64,000 nt of DNA from Chelativorans sp. Marseille-P2723 (lineage in GTDB: Bacteria; Pseudomonadota; Alphaproteobacteria; Rhizobiales; Rhizobiaceae). A model generated the notes under the pieces. The model was not told the DNA's origin, ran no database searches, and saw only the letters and a list, made by a program, of their open reading frames with translations. Location: positions 124,001-188,000 of the forward strand of contig NZ_CADDWI010000007.1 of NCBI RefSeq assembly GCF_902809845.1, in the 5' to 3' direction. A program made the translations under genes and the position numbers. Positions 25,986 to 31,985 of the stretch are shown here, in pieces (within the stretch, counting starts at the first letter, position 1; each line of letters starts with the position of its first letter).

Positions 25986-28082
25986 ATGCGGGGAATAATG
26001 CAAAAGCTTCAGGTGACCGTGTTCGGCGCGGCCGTTCTGGCTCTCTCCTCGGCGGCGGGACTTTCCGAGGAAACGGCTACATCCGTTCAAACGGTGCCGA
26101 CGCATTCGTTTTCCGGTGCCTATCTGGCTGGCCGTGCGGCCGAGTTCGACAACGATCTGGAAAGCGCGATCTCCTACTACGAACGAGCGATCTCCTATGA
26201 CCGCGAGAATACGGAACTTCAGCAGTCCCTCCTTCTGACCCTGATTTCGATTGGGCGCTTCGATGATGCGCTGCCCTATGCCGAGAAGCTGAAGACCGAG
26301 CCGCAATCCGAGCGTTTCTCCAGGCTTGTGCTGGCAGTCGATGCTTTCCGCAATCAAAATTACAAGGTGGCCGAGCGCTGGCTGGAACTGGTTCTGGAGT
26401 CGGATCTTGACCGGCTGATTACCAGCATCATGACGAGCTGGGCCAAGGCCGGGCAGGGAGATTTCGACAGCGCAATCGCCTTTCTGGAGGATCTGGAAGG
26501 CCCCGAGTGGTACGACCTTTTCACAAACTACCATCGCGCCTTGCTGCTTGCCGCATCCGGCAGCGAAGAGGAGGCAGGCGAACAGTTTCACGAGGTCCTC
26601 GAAAATCTTGCGCCTCGCTCGGTTGCGCCTGACACCCTCGGGCGAATTGCCCATGCCTATGCGGCGTTCCTTTCGGACCGTAGCGAGAATGAGGAAGCGC
26701 TCGCAGTTCTTGAGAGAGCGGTGGAGCTGGGTGGCGGAGTTGCCTCCATCGAAGCGCTCCGGCGCAAGCTGGAAGCAGGCGAGGTATTGGAGCCGACGGT
26801 TACTGCACCCATTGATGGCGCGGCGGAAATCCTGCTCAATATAGCAACGGAGCTCGCCAATGGAGGCACAGATTCGATCGTGCGGCTCTATTTGCGCTAT
26901 GCCGAAGCTTTGAGGCCGGAGGGCGACGCCATCCTGATGCAGCTTGCCCATGTGGCCGAGCGCCAGCAAAAGGGCGAGGAAGCCATCGCTCTTTACCAGA
27001 AGGTTCCTGAAGATTCTCCGTGGGCGCGCTTTGCTTCGTTCCAGGTGGGGCTCAACCTTGCCGATCTGGACCGCAAGGAGGAGGCTATTGAGCACCTGAA
27101 GGAAGTACTGGATGACGACCCGACCGACATGCGTGCCTATCTTGCGCTAGGGGGCGTTTACGCGTCCCAGAATGATTTTCGCTCGGCGGCTGGGGTTTAC
27201 GAGCGGGCGGTAGCGCAGATCGAGACACCGGAGCGGCGGCACTGGAACATCTTTTATCAGCGCGGCATCGCCTATGAACGCTTGAAGGAATGGCCCAAGG
27301 CGGAACCCAATTTCCGGAAGGCGTTGGAGCTCTTTCCCGACCACCCGCAAGTCCTGAACTATCTGGGCTATTCCTGGGTGGACATGAACATGAACCTGGA
27401 TGAGGCGATGGAGCTCATCCGCCGCGCGGCGGAACTGAGGCCGAGCGACGGCTACATCATCGACTCGCTCGGCTGGGCGCATTACCGGCTCGGTGAGTAT
27501 GAGGAGGCGGTCGAGCATCTGGAGCGTGCGGTCTCGCTGCGTCCGGAAGATCCCATCCTCAACGATCATCTGGGCGATGCCTATTGGCGCGTCGGCAGGC
27601 AGCTTGAGGCGCGCTACCAATGGTCGCACGCCCGCGATCTCGAACCGGAGCCCGAACTGCTGGCCGAGATCGAGAAGAAGCTGGAGAATGGCCTTCCGCC
27701 GCAAAACAACAGAAAGCTGGCTGACGCGGCCGGCACCGGGCGCAACGTCATCAGCGACAGCGCCGCAGAGACAAGTGCCACCCCGGAAGAGAAGGCCTCC
27801 ACGGACGAAGAGCAGACCGCCACAAGCGAAGAGAAGGATGCCTCCGGAACCGCTGAAGAAACCGGCGAAAACGAGGGAGCGGAAAGTCAGCCCGAGGCAG
27901 GTGCCGAAGCGGAGAGCCGGCTTTACACGGTGAAGGCCGGCCAGACGCTCTGGTCGATCGCCGCGGAGGTACTGGGAGATGGCGGGCGCTTCCGCGAAAT
28001 TCTGGATCTCAATCCCGAACTCAGGCGCGATCCCAACCGCATCCGCCCCGGTCAGGAGCTAAGGCTTCCTTCCGCGCCGTGA
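25986..28082 (+). CDS. Exported TPR-repeat protein with C-terminal LysM domain
   Basis: 698 residues. Signal peptide to about residue 25. At least nine TPR-like units follow (about 35-570), e.g. AGRAAEFDNDLESAISYYERA-type repeats and the well-formed pair near 480-530. A low-complexity Glu/Ala/Thr linker (about 575-643) leads to one LysM domain (about 645-698, LYTVKAGQTLWSIAAEVLG then IRPGQELRLP). It should therefore sit in the periplasm and bind peptidoglycan through its end. The start at 25986 has GAAAGGGA upstream; the frame could extend to 25926. It lies 80 bp upstream of glyQ. Confidence 0.88.
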   Translation: MRGIMQKLQVTVFGAAVLALSSAAGLSEETATSVQTVPTHSFSGAYLAGRAAEFDNDLESAISYYERAISYDRENTELQQSLLLTLISIGRFDDALPYAEKLKTEPQSERFSRLVLAVDAFRNQNYKVAERWLELVLESDLDRLITSIMTSWAKAGQGDFDSAIAFLEDLEGPEWYDLFTNYHRALLLAASGSEEEAGEQFHEVLENLAPRSVAPDTLGRIAHAYAAFLSDRSENEEALAVLERAVELGGGVASIEALRRKLEAGEVLEPTVTAPIDGAAEILLNIATELANGGTDSIVRLYLRYAEALRPEGDAILMQLAHVAERQQKGEEAIALYQKVPEDSPWARFASFQVGLNLADLDRKEEAIEHLKEVLDDDPTDMRAYLALGGVYASQNDFRSAAGVYERAVAQIETPERRHWNIFYQRGIAYERLKEWPKAEPNFRKALELFPDHPQVLNYLGYSWVDMNMNLDEAMELIRRAAELRPSDGYIIDSLGWAHYRLGEYEEAVEHLERAVSLRPEDPILNDHLGDAYWRVGRQLEARYQWSHARDLEPEPELLAEIEKKLENGLPPQNNRKLADAAGTGRNVISDSAAETSATPEEKASTDEEQTATSEEKDASGTAEETGENEGAESQPEAGAEAESRLYTVKAGQTLWSIAAEVLGDGGRFREILDLNPELRRDPNRIRPGQELRLPSAP

Positions 28083-28161: not shown

Positions 28162-29118
28162 GTGACCTCTGCCATCCCGCCACACATGCATCCCGCCCGT
28201 TCGTTCCAGGGCCTGATCCTCACTCTGCAAGCCTATTGGGCAGAGAGGGGATGCGTCATTTTGCAACCCTACGACATGGAAGTCGGTGCGGGGACGTTCC
28301 ATCCGGCCACCACTTTGCGCGCGCTTGGTCCGCTACCGTGGAACGCCGCCTATGTTCAGCCCTCGCGCCGTCCGAAAGACGGACGCTACGGGGAAAACCC
28401 GAACCGTTTGCAGCACTACTACCAGTATCAGGTAATACTGAAGCCTAACCCACCGGATCTGCAGGAGCTTTATCTGGGGTCGCTTGCCGCAATCGGGCTC
28501 GATCCGCTGCTGCACGACATCCGTTTTGTAGAGGACGACTGGGAAAGTCCGACCCTCGGCGCCTGGGGGCTTGGCTGGGAGTGCTGGTGCGACGGCATGG
28601 AGATCTCGCAGTTCACCTACTTTCAGCAGGTCTGCGGCATCGAATGCGCGCCCGTCTCAGGGGAGCTTACCTACGGGCTGGAGCGGCTGGCCATGTATGT
28701 GCAGGGCGTGGACAATGTCTACGACCTCAATTTCAACGGCCTCGAAGGTCCCGGCAAGGTGACCTATGGCGATGTCTTCCTGCAGGCCGAGCAGGAATAT
28801 TCGCGCTATAATTTCGAACATGCGGATACCGGGCTGCTCTTCCGCCATTTCGAGGATGCGGAAAGGGAATGCATTGCGTTGCTTGAGGCTGGAGCCGCGG
28901 ACGCGGAAACTGGCGGCTTGCACAAAATGGTCTTGCCGGCCTATGACCAGTGCATCAAGGCATCGCACGCATTCAACCTGCTCGACGCGCGCGGCGTGAT
29001 CTCGGTTACGGAGCGCCAGAGCTATATCCTGCGTGTTCGCGAACTGGCGAAGGCTTGCGGCGAAGCCTTTCTCAAGACGGAAGCGGGCGGCGCTAATTTG
29101 CACAAGCAAGCCGCATGA
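28162..29118 (+). CDS. glyQ: Glycyl-tRNA synthetase alpha subunit
   Basis: 318 residues. Catalytic alpha subunit of the bacterial alpha2beta2 GlyRS, which binds glycine and [42 protein letters not shown] and [16 protein letters not shown] are the family's conserved parts. The start is GTG at 28162 with GGAGAA upstream; ATG 28186 is an alternative. The partner glyS lies downstream, but separated by the repeat array at 29168-29762 rather than by the short gap usually seen. Confidence 0.96.
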
Positions 29119-29167
29119 CGATTCTTATCCACCAGCGCCAAATCCAATTTCAAGCTGAGCATACCTG

Positions 29168-29762
29168 ATGCCCGATCTTCTTCTTGAACTTCGCAGCGGG
29201 GAAACTCCGGCCCTGCCGCGCACCCGCAGCGCCAGAGGCGCGAGGACGCGCATACAAGAAACCGGCATGCTTGCGGAGATGCGCTGATGCCCGATCTTCT
29301 TCTTGAACTTCGCAGCGAGGAAATTCCGGCCCTGCCGCGCACCCGCAGCGCCATAGGCGCGAGGACGCGCATACAAGAAACCGGCATGCTTGCGGAGATG
29401 CGCTGATGCCCGATCTTCTTCTTGAACTTCGCAGCGAGGAAATTCCGGCCCTGCCGCGCACCCGCAGCGCCATAGGCGCGAGGACGCGCATACAAGAAAC
29501 CGGCATGCTTGCGGAGATGCGCTGATGCCCGATCTTCTTCTTGAACTTCGCAGCGAGGAAATTCCGGCCCTGCCGCGCACCCGCAGCGCCAGAGGCGCGA
29601 GGACGCGCATACAAGAAACCGGCATGCTTGCGGAGATGCGCTGATGCCCGATCTTCTTCTTGAACTTCGCAGCGAGGAAATTCCGGCCCTGCCGCGCACC
29701 CGCAGCGCCAGAGGCGCGAGGACGCGCATACAAGAAACTGGCATGCTTGCGGAGATGCGCTG
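29168..29762 (+). repeat. Five tandem 119-bp repeats derived from the glyS 5' end
   Basis: Units start at 29168, 29287, 29406, 29525 and 29644, each exactly 119 bp; a sixth, partial copy is the start of glyS itself at 29763. The first 43 bp of each unit equal the first 43 bp of glyS; the other 76 bp are unrelated to the following glyS sequence. Units differ by few bases: unit 1 has two changes in the glyS-derived part, units 2 and 3 have ATA instead of AGA in a small hairpin loop, and unit 5 has one silent T. Each tail holds a GCGCC-N3-GGCGC hairpin and a GCGCAT...ATGCGC inverted repeat (25-nt loop). Confidence 0.97.
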
Positions 29763-29763
29763 A
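29168..29763 (+). CDS. Chain of five 39-codon mini-ORFs (putative coupled leader of glyS)
   Basis: Each repeat unit opens with ATG and encodes 39 residues: the first 14 are those of GlyS ([14 protein letters not shown]), the remaining 25 form a basic, Arg-rich tail ending MLAEMR. Each stop TGA overlaps the next ATG by one base (TGATG), at 29287, 29406, 29525, 29644 and finally 29763, the glyS start. Each tail has GGAG 8 nt before the next ATG. Frames: 29168-29287, 29287-29406, 29406-29525, 29525-29644, 29644-29763. Unit 1 encodes Gly11 and Thr13 instead of Glu and Ile; units 2-3 have Ile23 for Arg. Whether the peptides are made is unknown. Confidence 0.5.
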
Positions 29764-31985
29764 TGCCCGATCTTCTTCTTGAACTTCGCAGCGAGGAAAT
29801 TCCGGCTCGCATGCAGCGCAAGGCGGCGGGCGATCTGAAGAAGCTCGTGACAGATGGTCTGGTGGAGGCGGGGCTTACCTATGAGGCTGCTACCCCCTAC
29901 TGGACGCCGCGGCGCCTGACGCTTGATGTGCGCGGCGTGACTGCCCGTTCCCGCGATGTGCGCGAGGAGCGCAAGGGCCCGCGGACCGATGCGCCGGAAA
30001 AGGCGATCGACGGCTTTCTGCGTGCTGCCGGCCTCTCATCGATTAATGAGGCCGAGGTCCGGTCCGACCCCAAGAAGGGGGATTTCTACGTCGCCGTAAT
30101 CGAAAGGAAGGGGCGGCCCGCGGAGGAGATCATTGCCGATCTCATGCCCGGCATCATACGCCATTTTCCATGGCCCAAATCCATGCGCTGGGGAAAGGCT
30201 TCCCGCAATCCCGGATCGCTTCGCTGGGTGCGCCCGCTTCAGTCCATCGTCTGCACCTTCGGCCCGGAAACGGAAGAGCCGGTGGTGGTCGATTTCGAGG
30301 TGGACGGAATTCGCGCCTCCAATATCACCTATGGTCATCGTTTTCATGCGCCGGACGCTATCATCGTGCGCCGGTTCGACGATTACGCGAAGAGTCTGGA
30401 AGCGGCGAAAGTGGTTCTCGATGCGGAACGCCGCAAGCGCATCATCCTCGACGACGCCAAGAACCTCGCCTTCGCCAACGGCCTTGAACTGGTGGAAGAC
30501 GAAGCCCTTCTGGAGGAAGTTGCCGGGCTGGTCGAATGGCCTGTCGTTCTGCTGGGAACTTTCGAGGAAGACTATCTTTCCATTCCCTCCGAAGTGGTTC
30601 GGCTTACCATCCGGGCCAACCAGAAATGCTTCGTCACGAGGCCGCAGGGCGAGCCTGAGATGCTTTCCAACCGCTTCGTCATCACGGCCAATATCGAAGC
30701 TTCCGATGGGGGCGAAAAGATCGCCTACGGAAATGGCAAGGTGGTGCGCGCGCGGCTCGCCGATGCGCTCTATTTCTGGAAGACCGATCAGGCCAACCTG
30801 CCGGACCTTGGCGACCTGAGGGATTCGGCGGAAAAATTCGGCCTCGACCTTCAGAGGCCGCTTGATCAGCGCATGGCGCGGCTCGACCATCTGAACGTCA
30901 CCTTCCACGCAAAGCTTGGTACCCAGGGCGAGCGTGTGGAGCGCATCCGTCAACTTGCCCGTGAGCTTGCACCGCTCGTGGGCGCTGACCCTGATCTTGC
31001 CGGGCGGGCGGCTCTGCTCGCAAAGGCCGACCTACAGACGGAGGTGGTGGGCGAATTTCCCGAGCTTCAGGGGGCCATGGGCCGCAAATATGCCGAGTTG
31101 CAGGGCGAGCATCCTTCCGTCTGCGCGGCGATAGAGGAGCATTACAAGCCGCTCGGCCCCTCCGATGTTGTGCCGAACGACCCTGTATCGATAGCGGTGG
31201 CGCTGGCCGACAAGCTGGACACGCTCGTTGGCTTCTGGGCCATCGACGAGAAGCCGACCGGCAGCAAGGACCCTTATGCGCTGAGAAGGGCGGCGCTGGG
31301 CGTGATCCGGATCGTGGTGGAGAATGGGGTGCTGCTGGCGCTCCTACCTACTATCCAGCGACACCGGATGGAGAAGTTCTATCCGGAAGATCTCGAATCT
31401 GAGGTTTCCAGTGCAAAGAAAGATGGACAGCGAATTGACGGGAGGATGATCAACCTCATCTCCTTCTTTCACGACCGGCTGGAGGTCTATCTGCGCGACA
31501 GAGGTGCGCGTTACGATCTTATCGACGCGGTTTTGGCAAGCGGATCGGGAGATGTTGCCGCCAATGACGATCTGCTCCTGATCGTCCGCCGCGTCGAGGC
31601 GCTGTCGGAGTTGCTTGGGACCGAGGACGGCAAGAACCTGCTTGCCGGTACCAACCGCGCCGTAAGCATCGTGGCGGCTGAGGAGAAGAAGGGCACGCGG
31701 ATTGCAGAATCGGTCAATCCGGGCCTCTTCACCGAACAGGCGGAAAAAGCCCTTTACGCTGCGGTGAATCAGGTTGAGAAGGACGCTGGCCATGCGATTC
31801 AAAATCAAGACTTTTCCGCCGCGATGAAGGCGCTTGCAACGCTGCGCGAACCGATCGATTCATTTTTCGAGGAAGTCCTCGTAAATGTCGAAGATGACTC
31901 AGTTCGCGCCAACCGCCTTGCGCTGCTGGCCCGCATCCGGCAGGCCACCGGCCAGGTGGCCGATTTCGCGAAGATCGCGGACTGA
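29763..31985 (+). CDS. glyS: Glycyl-tRNA synthetase beta subunit
   Basis: 740 residues, usual length is about 690-750. The beta subunit carries the tRNA-binding and anticodon-recognition parts. [18 protein letters not shown] is the conserved start; PWPKSMRWG near residue 140 and an HD-like and DALR-type anticodon-binding C-terminus (about 600-740) fit the family. The reading frame is intact. The start codon overlaps the stop of the fifth repeat mini-ORF (TGATG) and its only Shine-Dalgarno-like sequence (GGAG, 29751-29754) is supplied by the repeat tail. Confidence 0.96.

Follow-up and report, generated by a model that had tools for sequence, protein, structure and literature searches.

The interval between glyQ and glyS in the window (the whole stretch of 64,000 nucleotides that was analysed) raises the question of how glyS came to be preceded by several copies of its own start, and what these copies do to the gene. 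A single tandem array was reported at 29165-29806 by Tandem Repeats Finder (period 119, 5.4 copies, 99% matches, score 1249), and NCBIfam models identified the flanking genes, which confirms the five 119-bp tandem units at 29168-29762, with glyQ and glyS as neighbours, of a preliminary description made from the sequence alone (Table 1). Each of the five units was measured to consist of the first 44 bp of glyS and a 75-bp tail, and glyS itself carries no tail; the composite design in that description stood, and its lengths (43 bp and 76 bp) did not. Unit 5 and glyS are identical over 44 bp. The five units vary at four columns (unit 1 has its own differences at two columns, units 2 and 3 have a T in common, and unit 5 has a T of its own), and these unit-specific differences had been described correctly, as had the intact state of glyS (740 aa, TIGR00211). 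Both parts of the unit are constant except for the four columns, which does not fit the repeats and spacers of a CRISPR-like locus. The native leader between the glyQ stop and the first unit has only the CTG before ATG in common with the unit ends. Inside an ORF upstream of glyQ, the window also contains a 21-bp tandem repeat of 2.5 copies (27786-27837).

All five units are open frames of 39 codons, and the TGA of each overlaps the following ATG (TGATG), the stop and start arrangement of a translationally coupled ORF pair. Unit 5 joins glyS by the same overlap, so that five short leader ORFs stand in series before the gene. The accessible part of one report (PMC6728339) links such TGATG overlaps, and ATGA overlaps as well, to termination-reinitiation as the mode of coupling. 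The motif GCGGAG is present at the end of every unit, 8 nt before each next ATG, and a GCATGCGGGYGGAG-like stretch is also found before glyS in other genera. The leader peptides of units 4 and 5 are alike, those of unit 1 and of units 2-3 are slightly different, and each contains only two or three Gly codons. In the 64-kb window, Rfam gave 0 matches at the gathering threshold, and at E<=5 only two mir-346 matches (E 3.7 and 4), far below the mir-346 cut-off. With Rfam empty and so few Gly codons, a glycine-sensing attenuator or T-box is unsupported. When unit 5 was folded as RNA together with the glyS start, the stability of the fold was unremarkable (z -1.56; 16 of 200 shuffled sequences did as well).

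Table 1. Features of the glyQ-glyS interval and its flanks (positions in the window)
Feature	Position	Strand	Basis
glyQ, glycine--tRNA ligase alpha subunit	28162..29118	+	NCBIfam TIGR00388, E 5.8e-139
Native leader, 49 nt, glyQ stop to first unit	29119..29167	+	sequence
Unit 1 / leader ORF 1 (39 codons), TGA overlapping the start of unit 2, differs alone at two columns	29168..29286	+	
Unit 2 / leader ORF 2	29287..29405	+	
Unit 3 / leader ORF 3	29406..29524	+	
Unit 4 / leader ORF 4	29525..29643	+	
Unit 5 / leader ORF 5, stop overlaps glyS start codon (TGATG)	29644..29762	+	
Hairpin core, unit 1	29216..29254	+	model R1, 58.4 bits
Hairpin core, unit 2	29335..29373	+	model R1, 58.2 bits
Hairpin core, unit 3	29454..29492	+	model R1, 58.2 bits
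Hairpin core, unit 4	29573..29611	+	model R1, 58.4 bits
Hairpin core, unit 5	29692..29730	+	model R1, 58.4 bits
Shine-Dalgarno-like GCGGAG, 8 nt before glyS ATG	29749..29754	+	sequence
glyS, glycine--tRNA ligase beta subunit, intact, 740 aa	29763..31985	+	NCBIfam TIGR00211, E 2e-217

Structure and spread of the hairpin core

Search with the tail motif matched 29 of 394 genomes of the family, 21 of them (own genome included) before glyS with a duplicated glyS start and seven without such context. In the remaining genome (G036) the match lies before hisA with the hisA start duplicated, and two further units with hisF starts are present at hisF. Units were also found at both hisA and hisF in G137, twice at hisF in G145, and twice at glyS in G190, a single-contig genome. 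The core of the tail is accompanied elsewhere by the 5' ends of hisA, hisF and cimA, an occurrence with other genes that had been proposed as a test of the insertion of an element.

A hairpin model of 39 nt was built from 28 tails, and the structure was drawn by eye on these same, related sequences. It is a nested hairpin whose outer and inner stems, of 5 bp each, are separated by an internal loop and closed by a loop of 3 nt. In the alignment, 90.7% of the cells are paired and 16 cells are double-changed; the covariation score was reached by none of 500 shuffles, and sliding the partners by 1-3 columns lowered the paired cells to 17.5-51.4%. Changes on both sides occur in five pairs, a number that 24 of 500 shuffles also reach. 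The part common to different sites is this hairpin of about 39 nt and a short A-rich stretch. Because the last 20 nt or so before the ATG, which bear the Shine-Dalgarno-like sequence, are specific to each site, the whole tail was rejected as a single element. In the genome of the strain (13 contigs, 3.77 Mb), unit matches were confined to the array and the glyS start (E<=0.001), and no further copy of the hairpin model was found above noise (next best E = 1.89).

With the model, the core was found in 116 of 394 genomes of the family, representing 58 of 109 genera (E<=0.01), at one to six copies per matched genome, and a single-site oddity at glyS was rejected on this ground. Cut-offs differed among the scans: 21 of 249 genomes of the order matched at E<=0.001, five of them from the own family, and 3 of 240 genomes of the class at E<=0.0001. 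The class matches comprise the own genome, a locus before tRNA-Met (L363) and a different-looking repeat (L364). Named carriers include Mesorhizobium, Aminobacter, Aquamicrobium defluvii, Jiella mangrovi, Zhengella mangrovi, Tianweitania and Devosia; they come from a scan of contigs that matched at least 118 stretches, 74 of which were searched with the model, the 44 left out being, by their titles, mostly from outside the order. Among these 74 stretches, all matches above 33 bits belong to what we take to be Hyphomicrobiales, and those presumably outside the order reach at most 30.5 bits, a score as low as that of two real-looking loci inside the order (L220 and L238). As a separate observation, L364 (genome G838, same class but outside the order) carries at about 1400-1600 a hairpin repeat of related appearance, CGCAGCGCC..GGCGCGAGGAC, with a different stem after it.

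Gene ends, flanking repeats and empty sites

The sites of the core were compared in 113 distinct loci (114 before one duplicate was dropped), which are the better-scoring among the matches listed together with seven earlier loci, so that weaker copies are under-sampled. Each locus was classified by what follows its last core, and gene names rest on NCBIfam with one example per gene. Seven gene ends account for 107 of the 113 loci: glyS5' (32), mmsA3' (27), ilvC3' (21), hisF5' (19), cimA5' (5), sdhB3' (2) and hisA5' (1, an undercount, as L068 and L081 with both hisA and hisF units were counted once as hisF). Thus 3' ends make up 50 of the 107 classified loci. On the core's 3' side, the side examined, the gene was found in all 107, with six loci left over. 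Among these six others, L198 lies before tRNA-Met and L135, L156 and L177 lie at contig ends; in L132 and L148, beside masked DNA, sequence that to the eye resembles 3' halves of tRNAs is present, and ARAGORN finds no tRNA. A tRNA-Met gene follows the core in L198, L261 and L363. One element is therefore found at loci with different flanks, namely seven protein-gene ends and tRNA-Met, as for a transposon. At 5' sites the hairpin has the sense orientation relative to the gene and at 3' sites the antisense one, and one RNA function cannot therefore account for the whole set. In L236 (6358-6788), cores lie downstream of a tRNA-Gln gene, with a 75-bp flanking repeat of 70 identities.

In 85 of 109 loci, local alignment of the two flanks gave a score higher than that of any of 696 cross-locus null pairs (the median was 78 vs 14 in the null). 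The other 24 include both sdhB loci, several ilvC loci and the hisA locus L203, and the flanks of the tRNA-Met locus L261 contained no clear repeat (score 16). Where well preserved, the repeat of the gene end is about 40-63 bp long. It may extend past the gene, as in a glyS locus (L278, 58/63, including 19 nt before ATG), an mmsA locus (L283, 51/51, reaching 6 nt past the stop) and a cimA locus (L183, 47/47, with 15 nt before ATG), or begin exactly at ATG (L199, 57/57; L101, 48/48). A repeat that starts exactly at ATG would not be expected of random or simple target duplication.

Both empty and filled sites exist among relatives. In 61 genomes of the genus of G088, the 30 best-matching mmsA loci carry one, two and three copies of the gene end in 17, 10 and 3 cases, and the core is retained in three of the 17 loci with one recognisable copy. 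In several filled mmsA loci, the distal copy is followed by what looks by eye like a terminator, and so is the single copy of empty loci.

For glyS, a set of 16 genomes of the same genus (own included) was used, 15 of which gave a glyS match. No unit was found within 400 nt before glyS in 12 of the 14 relatives with such a match, which disposes of the tail as ordinary ancestral glyS leader sequence in all relatives. The other two carry units of like design with diverged tails, three of 119 bp in G009 and one in G014, and copy number at glyS therefore varies among species; variable copy number at this locus had been named in the preliminary description as support for its reading. Upstream of unit 1, G009 shares 176 identities over 200 nt with the unit-free G012, and the sequence directly before its intact glyS scores only at chance level (14) against the same genome; the empty-site comparison of G014 with G005 gave 143 identities. 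This upstream identity to unit-free relatives places unit 1 of G009 and G014 at the original glyS start, with the intact start downstream. Unit 1 of the window array probably holds the same position; its leader differs from those of the relatives, with a short glyQ-glyS gap, and no close unit-free relative was found for it. In the same-genus relatives (L008-L021), the GlyS protein itself is between 707 and 875 aa long, and most of this variation lies in a hypervariable region of the alignment past residue 530 or so; in L012, L013, L014 and L018 an in-frame RPISPLEGEMSPKATEGG-like repeat occurs beyond this region.

For 88 of 107 cores, the most similar other core comes from the same class of site. 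Cores of different loci within a genome are no more alike (0.726, 22 pairs) than cores of different genomes (0.727, 580 pairs), which gives no sign of recent hopping between loci; recent hopping within genomes is thus unsupported. Given the two results, copies seem to be mostly inherited or exchanged in place. The gene copy in glyS units resembles the glyS of its own genome (mean 41.1 of 45) more than that of others (36.8), the own gene being strictly best in 18 of 31 cases, and the same holds for hisF (40.9 vs 27.0; 11 of 17). This likeness to the own gene fits partial homogenisation or renewed gain.

Origin of the array and competing explanations

We consider it probable (about 0.7) that the array arose by tandem amplification from one member of an old family of insertion elements, very short and non-autonomous, in the order Hyphomicrobiales. 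Confidence is high for the pattern itself and moderate for the mobile origin of the element. In an ancestor, a nested hairpin of about 39 nt with an A-rich stretch would have entered the glyS start and left a direct duplication of the glyS 5' end (about 40-63 bp, as at well-preserved sites). With the 5' end duplicated, an intact glyS would remain downstream and a truncated copy of its start upstream, and we infer that the gene-end repeats are target-site duplications. Homologous exchange between the repeats would then have raised the units to five and partly kept the copies alike. A foreign insertion with duplication of the gene start and tandem expansion had been suggested before and is supported here, except that the 75-76 bp of the tail do not form one uniform element.

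In translation, a ribosome that completes one leader ORF would find itself at the start of the next, because stop and start overlap, and from leader ORF 5 it would pass to glyS by termination-reinitiation. The ends of leader ORFs were examined in 57 loci at 5' sites, four of which were set aside for a copy without start codon. In 51 of the remaining 53, the leader ORF stops within -12..+14 of the real start, at unit lengths from 104 to 137; the exceptions are L122, with masked bases, and L183, at -14. With shuffled tails, 23.0 of 52 were expected, compared with 51 of 52 observed (L122 dropped). Such regular ending at the real start probably reflects selection for coupling by termination-reinitiation. 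Judged from the sequences, the translation of 5'-site genes may depend on the leader ORF (moderate confidence), in the window the coupling would deliver the translation of glyS, and units that broke the stop and start overlap would have been removed by selection.

More tentatively, and with somewhat more doubt than trust on our side, the family may represent a new class of mobile elements, in which a structured element of about 50 nt inserts only at gene ends, whether the start or stop of a protein gene or the end of a tRNA gene, has its 3' side facing the body of the gene and copies about 40-63 bp of the gene end. The copied gene end would restore the target gene and thereby render insertion into essential genes harmless. 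If true, insertion at 5' sites would create coupled leader ORFs whose number can be changed by recombination.

The ending of the leader ORFs at the real start, kept across variable unit lengths, would also be expected if the units were a regulatory RNA or leader-ORF device that tunes the translation of glyS, hisF, hisA and cimA, with the unit number as a dial and the duplication as secondary. The covariation in the hairpin and the recurrence of the same few sites across many genera point the same way. However, the hairpin is antisense at the 3'-end sites, which are nearly half of those classified, no unit is seen in 12 of the 14 relatives of the genus, leader peptides are unlike between loci, and Rfam has no match. 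We regard a regulatory device as unlikely to be the primary explanation. Considerably less probable are remnants of attachment sites, left as minimal islands by a site-specific recombinase that targets gene ends and restores them by an identity block. Integrase att sites show gene-restoring repeats at gene ends, tRNA sites and one orientation, and the direct repeats, the tRNA-Met sites and the single orientation relative to the gene in the present family agree with this. Known integrated islands, on the other hand, are kilobases long, and here one and the same core is bordered by gene-end blocks that differ from gene to gene.

A purely local origin of the array, in which the glyS leader was duplicated in tandem or by slippage during replication without any foreign element, would account for the tandem layout and the site-specific 20 nt or so before ATG. 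It is contradicted by the core common to many sites (seven protein-gene ends and tRNA-Met), a core that 12 of the 14 relatives of the genus do not show before glyS, and is highly improbable. An assembly artefact is equally improbable: draft assemblies may miscount tandem repeats, but the units carry distinct substitutions and the same design recurs in other genomes, e.g., with two glyS units in the single-contig G190.

Relation to known repeats

No description of this hairpin family was found in open-access literature. In layout, mycobacterial MIRU, likened here to the glyS array from descriptions and belonging to different bacteria, are the nearest analogue. MIRU ORFs reportedly overlap the neighbouring stop and start codons, as a 1997 paper is said to describe, and we know of no copy of the downstream gene's start in MIRU, nor of MIRU at 3' ends or tRNA genes. 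In senX3-regX3, three 77-bp units, or two of 77 bp and one of 53 bp, are found depending on the strain (accessible part of PMC4213456). As far as that source goes, short tandem units between two genes with varying copy make-up are the common feature.

The family is similar to MITE and REP-type repeats in being short, hairpin-forming, without a protein of its own and present in many genomes. MITE target duplications are a few to about 14 bp long, whereas the well-preserved gene-end repeats here measure about 40-63 bp and are located at few gene ends. Rickettsia palindromic elements are small palindromic repeats in alphaproteobacterial genes that are tolerated in reading frames and insert in frame within the protein; the hairpin family, in contrast, leaves the gene complete and has a second copy of the gene end beside it. 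Eukaryotic SINE-type retroposons have a structured head, an A-rich 3' part and flanking target duplications. The hairpin head, the A-rich part and the flanking repeats are alike in the present family, whose duplications are longer, whose sites are restricted to gene ends and of which no active copies were seen. REPs occur at more than 100 copies per genome in the accessible part of PMC2817692, unlike the one to six copies per matched genome of the hairpin family.

The gene-end duplication suggests how very short elements can live harmlessly at essential genes. Should the repeats prove to be target duplications, their size and their place at the ends of genes would point to a new integration mechanism. 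The glyS, hisF, hisA and cimA sites form a natural series of 0 to 5 leader ORFs before core metabolic genes, through which the cost of termination-reinitiation is directly measurable. Automatic annotation could mis-call gene starts at sites that bear units. A further arrangement was observed in L329 (genome G441), where a tandem array at 1501-1861 consists of cores only, at 46-bp spacing, with no gene-end copies between them.
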